Source: an uncultured Dehalococcoidia bacterium (lineage in GTDB: Bacteria > Chloroflexota > Dehalococcoidia > Lucifugimonadales > UBA3495). From it: 64,000 nt of DNA. Position 1 is the stretch's first letter. The number at the start of each line of letters is the position of its first letter. The notes below the pieces were generated by a model. The model had not been told where the DNA came from. It ran no database searches and worked only from the letters and a program-made list of their open reading frames with translations. A program made the translations under genes and the position numbers. Positions 18,241-21,071 of the stretch are shown in pieces. Where the stretch lies: the NCBI GenBank assembly GCA_958296385.1, contig OY282494.1, positions 281,416-345,415 on the forward strand, written 5' to 3'.

Positions 18241-18719
18241 TAATTTTGACGGATGAACCCCTGGACGCGGCGGCGGTGACCGATTCGGTGCGGCGCGACG
18301 GCAACGGCGCCGTGGTGACGTTTCTGGGCACCACGCGGGATAACTTTGGCGGCAAGACGGTTACCCGGCTGGAATACGAAGCCTACGACGCGATGGCGGT
18401 CAAGAAGCTGCAAGAAGTGCGGGACAGCCTGTGCCGGGATTACGGCATTGCGGACGTTGCCATCGCCCACCGCACCGGGCGGGTGGACGTGGGCCACATC
18501 AGCCTGATAGTAGCGGTGGCATCTCCGCACCGGCGGGAGGCTTTTGAGGCGTGCCACGAGGCGGTGAACCGCATCAAGACGATAGTACCCATCTGGAAAA
18601 AGGAATGGTTCGCCGACGGCTCGCGCTGGGTAGCGTGCGAAGACCACGAGTTTGCGGACGAAGCCGAGCATACCCACGCCCACGCGGAACGCCACGCCGC
18701 CCCGGTGGGGGATGACTAG
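18237..18719 (+). CDS. moaE: Molybdopterin synthase catalytic subunit MoaE
   Basis: 160 residues from the ATG at 18237. Conserved MoaE blocks are visible: GAVVTFLGTTRDNFGGKTV, LEYEAYDAMAVKKL, IAHRTGRVDVGHISLIVAVASPHRREAFEAC and the catalytic lysine segment PIWKKEWFADGSRWV. The C-terminus has a His/Glu-rich tail. Together with MoaD it converts cyclic pyranopterin monophosphate to molybdopterin. The gene is translationally coupled to moaD and ends against the convergent rimM gene (stops overlap at 18716-18719). Confidence 0.95.
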   Translation: MIILTDEPLDAAAVTDSVRRDGNGAVVTFLGTTRDNFGGKTVTRLEYEAYDAMAVKKLQEVRDSLCRDYGIADVAIAHRTGRVDVGHISLIVAVASPHRREAFEACHEAVNRIKTIVPIWKKEWFADGSRWVACEDHEFADEAEHTHAHAERHAAPVGDD

Positions 18720-19294
18720 CGCAGCCCGTCGATTAGGTGCACCAGTATGCGCCCGGCGGCCAGGTCAATGTCTTTGACGACCTGCTGGACGGCGGGGAGT
18801 AAAAGCTCGGCGCCGTCCGCAGATTCGACTACATAGACGTCGTTGCTGCCGGTGGCCAGTATTTCGCGAACCTGGCCCAGGTTCTCGCCGGCGTCGGTTA
18901 CTACGTTCAGTCCCACCAGTTGGTAGTGGTAATACTCGCCGGGGGGAAGTTGGGCGGCGCCGTCGGTGGGGGCGTAGAGCCATTTGCCGGTGAGCTGGCG
19001 GGCGGCGGCGGCGCCGGTGATGCCGTCCAGATTGAGCAGGGCGTAGCCGTCGGGCAGGGGGCGCCACGCTGCGATGGTGCGGGCGTCGTCGTTGACGGTT
19101 ACGGTTTGTCCGGGTTGAAACCGGGCGGGGTTGTCGGAGTAGGAACGGACGCGCAGGGCACCCTCCAAGCCGTGGGCGCGTATGACGCGTCCAACGACAA
19201 CTTGGCCGTCGCGGGCGGCCGGGGCGTCCTCGGCGGGCCGGCTGGCGGGTTGCGCTGGCCGGTGGCGACGCTGAGGGCGGTTCCGGCTAGACAA
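18716..19294 (-). CDS. rimM: Ribosome maturation factor RimM
   Basis: 192 residues. The N-terminal RimM domain starts at about residue 31 with VVVGRVIRAHGLEGALRVRSYSDNP, and the C-terminal PRC-barrel with YYHYQLVGLNVVTDAGENLGQV and LLPAVQQVVKDIDLAAGRILV. RimM helps assemble the 30S head and binds S19. The first 30 residues are Arg/Pro/Ala-rich and atypical. The called start is a TTG overlapping the end of khpA by eight bases; a later start is possible. It is the third gene of the rpsP-khpA-rimM operon. Confidence 0.93.
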   Translation of the reverse strand: MSSRNRPQRRHRPAQPASRPAEDAPAARDGQVVVGRVIRAHGLEGALRVRSYSDNPARFQPGQTVTVNDDARTIAAWRPLPDGYALLNLDGITGAAAARQLTGKWLYAPTDGAAQLPPGEYYHYQLVGLNVVTDAGENLGQVREILATGSNDVYVVESADGAELLLPAVQQVVKDIDLAAGRILVHLIDGLR

Positions 19295-19514
19295 TCTCCA
19301 GGACGGCCCGGGTGCCGTCTTTGACCGCGGCGACGCGCAGGAGAACGCGCATCGCCTGGGCCACGCGGCCCTGTCGCCCGATGACCTTGCCCTTGTCTTC
19401 GGGGGCCACTTCCAGGCGTATCACAATTTGGTCGCCCTCGTCCGACTCCGTAACGCGCACAGCTTCCGGGTTGGACGTGAGGGACTGAGCGATAAACTCA
19501 ATCAGCTCTTTCAT
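19287..19514 (-). CDS. khpA: KH-domain RNA-binding protein KhpA
   Basis: 75 residues, one type II KH domain. The RNA-binding GxxG loop is in APEDKGKVIGRQGRVAQAMRVLL. KhpA forms a dimer with KhpB (encoded at 41235 here) in other bacteria and binds many RNAs. Placement between rpsP and rimM is the normal order. It overlaps rpsP by 17 bases and rimM by eight, so its expression must depend on translation of rpsP. Confidence 0.94.
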   Translation of the reverse strand: MKELIEFIAQSLTSNPEAVRVTESDEGDQIVIRLEVAPEDKGKVIGRQGRVAQAMRVLLRVAAVKDGTRAVLEIV

Positions 19515-19782
19515 CCGAGATGACCTTGTCGGGGTGGACTTTGCTGAAAATGTCGTTGTAGTTGAAAATGCGGCGCACCGGGTCGGAGGGTTGGGCGCCT
19601 TTGCGCAGCCAGGCTACGGCGCGTTCCTCGTTCAGGGTTACGGCCGGCGGGTCTGCCATGGGGTCGTAGTGGCCGATGCCGTCAATGTAGGCCCCGTCGC
19701 GGGGGGTGCGTTGCTCAGTGACGACGATGCGGTAGTAGGGGCGGCCTTTCTTGCCGACCCGGCGCAGACGAATCCGTAGCAT
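19498..19782 (-). CDS. rpsP: 30S ribosomal protein S16
   Basis: 94 residues with the S16 signature MLRIRLRRVGKKGRPYYRIVV and the conserved IGHYDP and VAWLRKGAQPSDPVRRIF segments. S16 binds 16S rRNA in the 30S body. The ATG at 19782 follows a modest GGAG (19788-19791 on the plus map). It is the first cistron of rpsP-khpA-rimM and is preceded by a roughly 265-nt leader with a promoter, a short upstream frame and competing stems. Confidence 0.97.
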   Translation of the reverse strand: MLRIRLRRVGKKGRPYYRIVVTEQRTPRDGAYIDGIGHYDPMADPPAVTLNEERAVAWLRKGAQPSDPVRRIFNYNDIFSKVHPDKVISDERAD

Positions 19783-20047
19783 CTTTACTCCAGCTGATTA
19801 GTCAAAGAATAGAATATCGGGCCCAGACTGGACCTTTCGCTCACCGCCCGATAATCCCGAGGACCCCGGGGCGACGGTAGACACTGGTCTGGGCCCGACG
19901 AACGGGCTAAATGCCAACTTTTGGAAAGCGATGACGCTAAGAGGCGTTCACCCCGTCGTGTCCAGACTGGTGCCTACCATCGCCCCAGCATGTTAAACTG
20001 TGTTTCATTAGCCATCACCTCCTTTCTCAAAGTTCCGCCAAGCGGTT
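19783..20047 (-). promoter_or_regulatory. Structured 5' leader of rpsP-khpA-rimM (attenuator-like)
   Basis: Three related arms occur in transcription order. A is 19986-19962, B is 19892-19868 and its extension to 19898, and C is 19828-19817. A and B match over 25 nt with 21 Watson-Crick and 2 G-U pairs on the minus-strand RNA. B and C pair perfectly over 11-12 bp (CGGGCCCAGAC/GTCTGGGCCCG). Both stems need 19887-19892, so they cannot be complete together. After C comes a U-rich stretch (AUAUUCUAUUCUUU), making B:C look like a weak terminator and A:B an anti-terminator. The B:C loop of about 58 nt is long for a terminator. The pairing is read directly; the mechanism is inference. Confidence 0.55.
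19937..20008 (-). CDS. Possible 23-codon leader peptide upstream of rpsP
   Basis: An ATG at 20008 follows a ribosome-binding site complementary to 12 bases of the usual 16S 3' tail (AAAGGAGGTGAT, 20025-20014), with nine bases between AGGAGG and ATG. The frame has 23 codons, rich in Gly and His (MKHSLTCWGDG...), and ends with TAG at 19939-19937. Codons 8-16 coincide with arm A of the leader. A 13-codon frame from an ATG at 20015 is too close to the Shine-Dalgarno to be likely. Whether a peptide is made is unknown; the strength and spacing of the site are the support. Confidence 0.45.
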   Translation of the reverse strand: MKHSLTCWGDGRHQSGHDGVNAS

Positions 20048-20053
20048 GGTATC

Positions 20054-20082
20054 AATTTACCGTCGGGAGCTGCGCTTGTCAA
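20054..20082 (-). promoter_or_regulatory. Sigma70-type promoter of the rpsP operon
   Basis: On the minus strand: consensus TTGACA (20082-20077), a 17-bp spacer, then TAAATT (20059-20054). Predicted transcription start is near 20047, giving about 22 nt before the strong ribosome-binding site of the short leader frame and about 265 nt before rpsP. It lies close to or within the 5' end of the divergent fmt gene. Confidence 0.7.
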
Positions 20083-20117
20083 CCCATTTTGCAAACGAAT
20101 CGCCAAGTTCCGCCCCA

Positions 20118-21071
20118 TTGCCGAATTCGCTGCGGGCCGTGTTCATGGGCACGCCCGATTTCGTCGTTCCCGTGCTGGACGCGCTGGCCGGCGATTCCGA
20201 CGTGCAGGTAGTGGCGGCCTACGTGCCTCCGGACCGGCCCCGAGGGCGGGGGCGTACCGTGCAGGTGGCGCCGGTGAAACAGCGGGCCATTGAGCTGCAA
20301 ATGCCGGTAATCCAGCCGCCGACGCTGCGCAACCCGGACGCGGTGGCCGAGTTGGCCGCCTTTGCGCCGGACGTAATCGTAGTAGCCGCCTACGGGCGCA
20401 TCCTACCGCCGGACGTTTTGCGGCTGCCCCGGCTGGGCTGCCTGAACCTGCATCCGTCGCTGCTGCCGAAACACCGGGGGCCGTCGCCGGTGGTGGGCAC
20501 AATCCTGTCCGGGGACGTCGTAACCGGCGTTACTTTGATGCTGCTGGACGAGGGTATGGACACCGGGCCAATCATCGCGCAATCCCGTCGGGACATAGGC
20601 CCGGAGGACGACGCTCAATCGCTGACGACGGCGCTGTTTGACGACGGGGCCCGGCTGCTGCTGGAATGTCTGCCGGATTGGGCGCAGGGCCGGATTGACC
20701 CTACGCCGCAGGATGCCGGCGCCGCTACCTACACCCGCAAGGTGGAACGGGCCGACGGGGCGGCGCGTTGGGATGCTACGGCTGCGGAACTCTGCCGGCA
20801 GCTGCGGGCGTATAGCCCCTGGCCGGGGTTGTACACCAGTTGGGACGGCAAAGAACTCAAATTGTTGGGCGTGGATGCGGTTAGCGGGGCCGGCATTAAG
20901 GATGATGTTGAGCCCGGCAAAGTAATCAGCGCCGACGGAACGGGCATACTGGTTGGCGCCGGCGATGGGCTGCTCAACGTCCGCCGGCTGCAACTGGAGG
21001 GACGCCGGCCGTCCGATGCGGCGGACTTTTTGCGGGGGTATCCCGATTTTATCGGCGCCCGTCTGGGATAG
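20118..21071 (+). CDS. fmt: Methionyl-tRNA formyltransferase
   Basis: About 317 residues. N-terminal AVFMGTPDFVVPVLDAL, AAYGRILPPDVL, and the catalytic block CLNLHPSLLPKHRGPSPV with the conserved Asn, His and Pro; then DTGPIIAQ and C-terminal PWPGLYT. Where E. coli has SLLPRWRGAAP, this one has KHRGPSP. The enzyme formylates initiator Met-tRNA. No ATG stands at the family's usual start. TTG at 20118 gives a short normal N-terminus (MPNSLRAVFMG); TTG at 20046 would add 24 atypical residues and overlap the rpsP promoter; GTG at 20139 is a third choice. Confidence 0.93.
   Translation: MPNSLRAVFMGTPDFVVPVLDALAGDSDVQVVAAYVPPDRPRGRGRTVQVAPVKQRAIELQMPVIQPPTLRNPDAVAELAAFAPDVIVVAAYGRILPPDVLRLPRLGCLNLHPSLLPKHRGPSPVVGTILSGDVVTGVTLMLLDEGMDTGPIIAQSRRDIGPEDDAQSLTTALFDDGARLLLECLPDWAQGRIDPTPQDAGAATYTRKVERADGAARWDATAAELCRQLRAYSPWPGLYTSWDGKELKLLGVDAVSGAGIKDDVEPGKVISADGTGILVGAGDGLLNVRRLQLEGRRPSDAADFLRGYPDFIGARLG

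Follow-up and report, generated by a model that had tools for sequence, protein, structure and literature searches.

The window, by which we mean the entire 64,000-nucleotide stretch of DNA analyzed here, carries on its minus strand the genes rpsP (encoding S16; 19498 to 19782; Pfam PF00886), khpA (19287 to 19514; PF13083), and rimM (18716 to 19294; PF01782 and PF24986). Their divergent neighbor on the plus strand is fmt (20046 to 21071; PF00551 and PF02911), whose listed TTG start overlaps the promoter and 5' end of the element described below, so that the true fmt start probably lies further in. All features of the element are on the minus strand. A sequence scan located a sigma-70-type promoter, TTGACA-17-TAAATT (TTGACA at 20082-20077 and TAAATT at 20059-20054), which was the sole promoter-like site in 900 nt, against 0.2 expected. 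Adjoining the expected transcription start is a 5'-end hairpin, CCGCUUGGCGG (20035 to 20045), and behind it lies a perfect Shine-Dalgarno (SD) sequence of 12 nt, AAAGGAGGUGAU (20025-20014). Over these 12 nt the SD, AAAGGAGGTGAT, is perfectly complementary to the 3' end of the 16S rRNA of the same genome, ...GGATCACCTCCTTTTT. The SD precedes a micro-ORF of 23 codons, MKHSLTCWGDGRHQSGHDGVNAS* (20008-19937). The promoter, the 12-base ribosome-binding site, and the 23-codon frame had all been proposed in a first-pass annotation of the locus, and each was present as described. Sequences of the type AGGAGGTGAT with an ATG within 9 nt occurred at only two sites in the whole 3.3-Mb genome, the element included; the other, a AGGAGGTGAT-N-ATG site (G000:C1:384386-384403, L188), precedes a 377-amino-acid ORF with an HGHADHDGG motif (metallo-beta-lactamase-like). 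No second copy of the element was found in this genome.

The element was present in 46 of 50 genomes of the window's family (f1), in one copy each, beside rpsP and on the same strand. The genomes examined were mostly metagenome-assembled genomes (MAGs), and the named records of the family are Dehalococcoidia and SAR202-cluster MAGs. Among the 42 nonredundant family copies, the frame was always exactly 23 codons long with an invariant ATG, a consensus promoter was found upstream in 41 (1.6 expected), and a run of at least four T residues followed arm C, the last arm of the fold, in 35. The core of the family, GGCGATGGTAGGCAYCWGTCTGGACRYGACGRGGTGA, hardly varies, even at third codon positions. 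Codon 5 was TTA in all 42 copies and codon 12 was invariably AGG, with TTA accounting for 1.7% of the Leu codons in the window and AGG for 2.1% of Arg codons. The encoded amino acid was kept at codons 9 to 13, 15, 16, 18, and 20. Since the third positions are frozen too, conservation of the peptide is inseparable from constraint on the RNA within this family.

Fold of the element

The leader (19783-20045; 263 nt) had a fold z-score of -3.5, and none of 200 shuffled sequences was equally stable. The A:B and B:C stems reported earlier were recovered as 17 plus 6 bp and 12 bp, respectively. The lower part of A:B, here called S1, is formed by the lower part of arm A (19986-19970) and segment B2 (19884-19868), whereas the upper helix pairs GUCUGG (19967-19962) with the last 6 nt of segment B1 (19892-19887). 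The B:C stem, S2, comprises 12 perfect pairs between the whole of B1 (19898-19887) and arm C, GUCUGGGCCCGA (19828-19817). Arm A overlaps the short frame, an arrangement conserved in the family. The U-rich stretch that had been noted after B:C is there (UAUUCUAUUCUUUG; 19803 to 19816), but it is degenerate and weak, with no T run longer than 3, and a scan for simple terminators (loops of at most 8 nt) found none in the window element.

Pairing was assessed in 31 distinct concatenated A, B, and C segments, which were cut by hand in one register, so that the following counts lean somewhat towards structure: S1 was paired in 98.7% of cells, S1 plus the upper helix in 98.8% with six doubly changed pairs, and S2 in 94.3%. 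When the partner was slid by one column, the pairing of S1 plus the upper helix fell to 42 to 43%. Doubly changed pairs in S2 were seen across families at 36:69 (C-G to U-A) and 39:66 (A-U to G-C). Judged from these alignments, the conservation of S1 and S2 is far above chance and both contain compensatory changes, which the first-pass annotation had named as something to be sought in relatives.

The same annotation held the two stems to be mutually exclusive. Both do use 19887-19892, but these nucleotides belong to the upper helix only, and the 17-bp S1 is no competitor of B:C. The duplex energies were -34 kcal/mol for S1, -26 kcal/mol for S2, and -8 kcal/mol for the upper helix, with spacings of about 2 to 4 nt between B1 and B2 and about 35 to 47 nt between B2 and C. 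Because B:C conflicts only with the 6-bp upper helix, the two stems could be present together in a pseudoknot; the energies and spacings would permit an H-type fold in which B:C displaces the upper helix while S1 stays in place. Nested folding did reproduce a flip, with all 42 sequences forming A:B as long as A was free and all 42 forming B:C once A was masked, but this is no proof of strict exclusivity, since nested algorithms are unable to represent a pseudoknot.

Relation to rpsP and occurrence in other families

A promoter of the TTGACA-17-TAnAAT type, accepted at 9 or more of 12 matches, lay between arm C or the terminator and the rpsP start in 40 of the 44 family loci, where chance would give about 4. 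Among the four exceptions is the window, in which arm C is 34 to 36 nt from rpsP with no promoter between them. Another locus, in G022, has a promoterless gap of 66 nt from the element to rpsP. Transcription of rpsP solely through the terminator of the element fits the window and, at most, three loci besides it. Of 42 family loci, 40 showed signs of a divergent fmt; fmt, the element, and rpsP form one conserved block, and for this reason the proximity of rpsP is not independent evidence for a role in cis. Compared with its sister species, the window shows at 19816-19783 a shrunken interval, a lost rpsP promoter, and a degraded T run. Read from sequence, the RNA may have been captured recently as a leader in the window species, where the element, with no promoter evident for rpsP itself behind it, may indeed serve in that role.

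The interval behind the element varied in other ways within the family. In the copies of genus g4 (L057 and L093-L098), the first terminator is directly followed by another hairpin and T run (CCGGCGA..CGCCGG-TTTTT), and in L056 a long inverted repeat, GGCCGGGCCCGTCTTTTT...AAAAAGACGGGCCCGGCC, makes up the interval between arm C and rpsP. L153 (in G024), a divergent copy of the family located between fmt and rpsP, lacks the TTA codon, has a stop after 10 codons, and is followed closely by an rpsP promoter, TTGACA-17-TAGAAT; this copy is perhaps decaying.

A covariance model of the region from the SD to B (R1) identified the RNA in another seven genomes of this order (families f4, f10, and f15), with E values of 1e-13 to 1e-19; the values of 1e-24 to 1e-29 obtained after these seven were added to the model are raised by construction. 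In these families the RNA is located away from rpsP. The two were far apart on the same contig in G038 (rpsP at 2.30 Mb and the element at 0.36 Mb) and in G049 (2.18 and 1.09 Mb) and on different contigs in G044. Gene neighbors differed between families and some downstream genes were unrelated: Pfam matches identified convergent downstream genes for a luciferase-like protein in L147, a protein with BNR repeats in L151, and a CoA transferase III in both L148 and L152, two copies from f15. All f4, f10, and f15 copies have a TTGACA-17/18-TAnnAT promoter, and a promoter was present upstream in 8 of 8 divergent copies. The 5' hairpin was kept with base-pair swaps, for example, as CCGACGAGUCGG in L152. 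A simple terminator was found 57 to 75 nt behind S1 in five of the seven copies, and the scan for simple terminators found none in L149, L151, and L153. As far as can be read from sequence, the element has the promoter and terminator of its own that are expected of a standalone small RNA, and its structure is conserved independently of its gene neighbors, with compensatory changes in the fold while the neighbors vary.

The SD, the ATG, and a UUUA were retained in all seven other-family copies, while the frame behind them was altered. In f4 it reads MKHNLGQRGDGKHLSRCDSD, f15 shifts the core into a different frame (MEHSLTKRAMVGICLDSTL), and f10 has a stop inside the core after 11 codons (MSEYLSNRGRW). 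The leader frame, whose conservation had been proposed as a check, is therefore kept within the window's family but replaced by another frame or cut short by an early stop elsewhere. The altered frame and the location away from rpsP indicate that selection in these families keeps the RNA and its ribosome entry rather than the peptide or the link to rpsP.

The first-pass annotation had read the element as a dedicated attenuator of rpsP-khpA-rimM, in which translation of the short frame leads to termination by B:C and poor initiation leads to formation of A:B and reading of rpsP. As a general account this failed on the separate rpsP promoters of the family and on the other families, in which the RNA often has no gene to control. 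Regulation of this kind could operate where rpsP is without a promoter behind the element, in G022 and the window species, and the weakened U tract of the window also counts in its favor. So do the perfect SD and the 23-codon frame of all 42 family copies, which provide the leader frame that translation would require. The reading as an rpsP leader, thus, may apply in the window species but not in the family or order generally. Even for the window species, we regard attenuation in cis as unlikely to be the main function. The element does adjoin rpsP on the same strand throughout the family, and the folding flip in 42 of 42 sequences is what such a switch calls for, but the flip is built into nested folding, and B:C can displace the upper helix with S1 intact. 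Moreover, given the size of the ribosome footprint, codons 8 to 16 are left exposed once translation has reached the stop codon.

It seems improbable that the conserved product is instead a micropeptide, GDGRHxSGHDxV, with the RNA structure being incidental. The perfect SD, the constant length of 23 codons, and the amino acids kept in the family agree with such a gene, but the third positions of the core are frozen along with them (GGC GAT GGT AGG .. TCT GGA .. GAC), rare codons included, which argues that the RNA is what is constrained, and the changed frame in f15 and the early stop in f10 also speak against it.

Similar elements across the Chloroflexota

A second model, R2, gave 10 weak matches (E values of 1e-4 to 0.05) in 400 Chloroflexota genomes. 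Those that could be read were standalone micro-ORFs with a perfect SD; L155, which has no such SD, was set aside. An independent pattern, SD-AUG-RAN-NNN-AGT (AGGAGGTGATN{1,6}ATGRANNNNAGT), was found in 23 of the 400 genomes, exactly once in each and in 13 genera, and its loci coincided with 9 of the 10 R2 matches. The reversed pattern had no match in the 400 genomes, and the pattern itself had none in 27 genomes reached through other loci, mostly from other phyla. The inspected pattern loci were standalone micro-ORFs of 14 to 22 codons (e.g., MNDSKRMGVAAGEAR, MDSSTKLSAVASLLE, and MDYSSCRCTWASPEVSR), most of them with a promoter upstream and many with a strong terminator nearby. Their peptides have little in common beyond M-[DN]-x-S, which again argues against a peptide as the conserved product. 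Neighboring genes at the pattern loci varied and included DUF3048, methyltransferase, and rRNA genes. Because the resemblance lies mainly in the SD and start region, common descent of these phylum-level elements with the RNA of the window is likely, judging by sequence, but not proven.

Some of these loci had features of their own. In L170 (1500-3026; family f137), the element converges on the 3' end of a 23S rRNA gene and on a probable 5S gene, the score of which was just under the Rfam cutoff. L165 (from position 1500, read in reverse orientation) contains GGGCAUCACC, a sequence nearly identical to the 3' end of 16S rRNA, with two possible pairing partners, the SD region GGUGAUGCCC and a further GGUGAUGCC; the three segments would make a predicted switch that hides the SD. 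As a general rule, hiding of the SD by a downstream anti-SD copy was rejected: it was convincing in L165, L168, L169, and L174 and nonsignificant in most others.

Interpretation and comparison with known RNAs

Comparison with Rfam 15, which had been suggested at the outset, gave no convincing match to the element in the window, in the other families, or in the phylum-level relatives, and no description of such an RNA was found in the literature. The only match in the window at the gathering score was a tRNA gene (2315-2399). Mimicry of rRNA was tried and rejected, the element scoring 20 against its own 16S rRNA in the sense orientation compared with a shuffled null mean of 20.6. Attenuation specific to an amino acid also was rejected: the frame has no codon run, and its frozen rare codons are limited to TTA (codon 5) and AGG (codon 12).

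Autogenous control, in which S16 or RimM would bind the RNA and repress its own operon, is very unlikely in our judgment. It would agree with the position beside rpsP in the window's family and has a parallel in the S16 leaders proposed in Flavobacteria (PMC7247131), but the association with rpsP that is expected of an S16 leader across the range of the RNA breaks down in the other families, and the element has neither similarity to its own 16S rRNA above that of shuffled sequence nor an Rfam match. We give almost no credence to the idea that the element is a known stable RNA (tmRNA, 6S, RNase P, or SRP RNA) in diverged form, which would share the single copy, strong promoter, structure, and short reading frame, since Rfam 15 gave no convincing match in the window or its relatives and ARAGORN found no tmRNA at the element loci.

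Overall, the comparative sequence data suggest that the element is probably an undescribed standalone RNA gene that captures or loads ribosomes and that has been fused secondarily to rpsP in the window species. Its strong promoter would yield an independent small RNA of about 200 to 250 nt, composed in order of the 5' hairpin, the SD perfectly complementary to the end of 16S rRNA, a micro-ORF of about 10 to 23 codons, the helices S1, upper helix, and S2, and a terminator, for which S2 presumably also provides the stem in the window's family. Such an RNA would be expected to be a highly efficient binder of 30S subunits or ribosomes, and S1 would be opened by ribosomes as they traverse the micro-ORF. 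Selection then would act on the RNA and its ribosome occupancy and not on the peptide, as for a sensor of ribosome loading or a decoy. In the window species, the shortened promoterless interval would make rpsP-khpA-rimM dependent on read-through of the RNA, and ribosome loading may tune rpsP secondarily by this route. Against a standalone gene stands the position of the family copies, always upstream of rpsP and in the same orientation, which a role in cis would produce likewise.

More tentatively, the proposal may be extended to the phylum. It is conceivable that many Chloroflexota carry a single-copy, ribosome-capturing RNA, with a perfect SD of 10 to 12 nt and a micro-ORF, that serves by way of its fold, stability, or termination to report or buffer the pool of free ribosomes and that in the lineage of the window was captured as promoter and leader of rpsP-khpA-rimM, coupling 30S assembly to ribosome loading. 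If true, this would define a new class of translation-linked small RNA in a major and poorly studied phylum, based on a single-copy gene, a near-unique perfect SD, a nonconserved micropeptide, and a conserved fold that is switchable or pseudoknotted. It would offer a concrete test case for whether bacteria sense or buffer free ribosomes by a dedicated RNA. A further caution is that what looks like a conserved "leader" of a neighboring gene may be an RNA gene in its own right, held in place by synteny.

Among known systems, the S16 leader has been reported only from Flavobacteria, where it was proposed by Eckert and Weinberg (2020; PMC7247131). In the window's family the element shares with that leader a position upstream of rpsP and rimM; it differs in having no tie to rpsP outside one family and no match in Rfam 15. 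Ribosome-mediated transcription attenuators of the trpL/pheL type are likewise built on a short frame that overlaps alternative helices, one of which is a terminator stem, as S2 presumably is in the window's family. In contrast to these, the RNA described here is standalone in other families without a downstream target gene, contains no run of regulatory codons, and has helices, S1 and S2, that can coexist as a pseudoknot. SgrS/SgrT, RNAIII, and SR1 are dual-function small RNAs with an independent promoter and terminator, an SD, and a small frame, and the element resembles them as a short RNA with all of these parts. It differs from them in that the peptide is not conserved across families, the SD matches the 16S end over 12 nt, and the frame overlaps the main stem.
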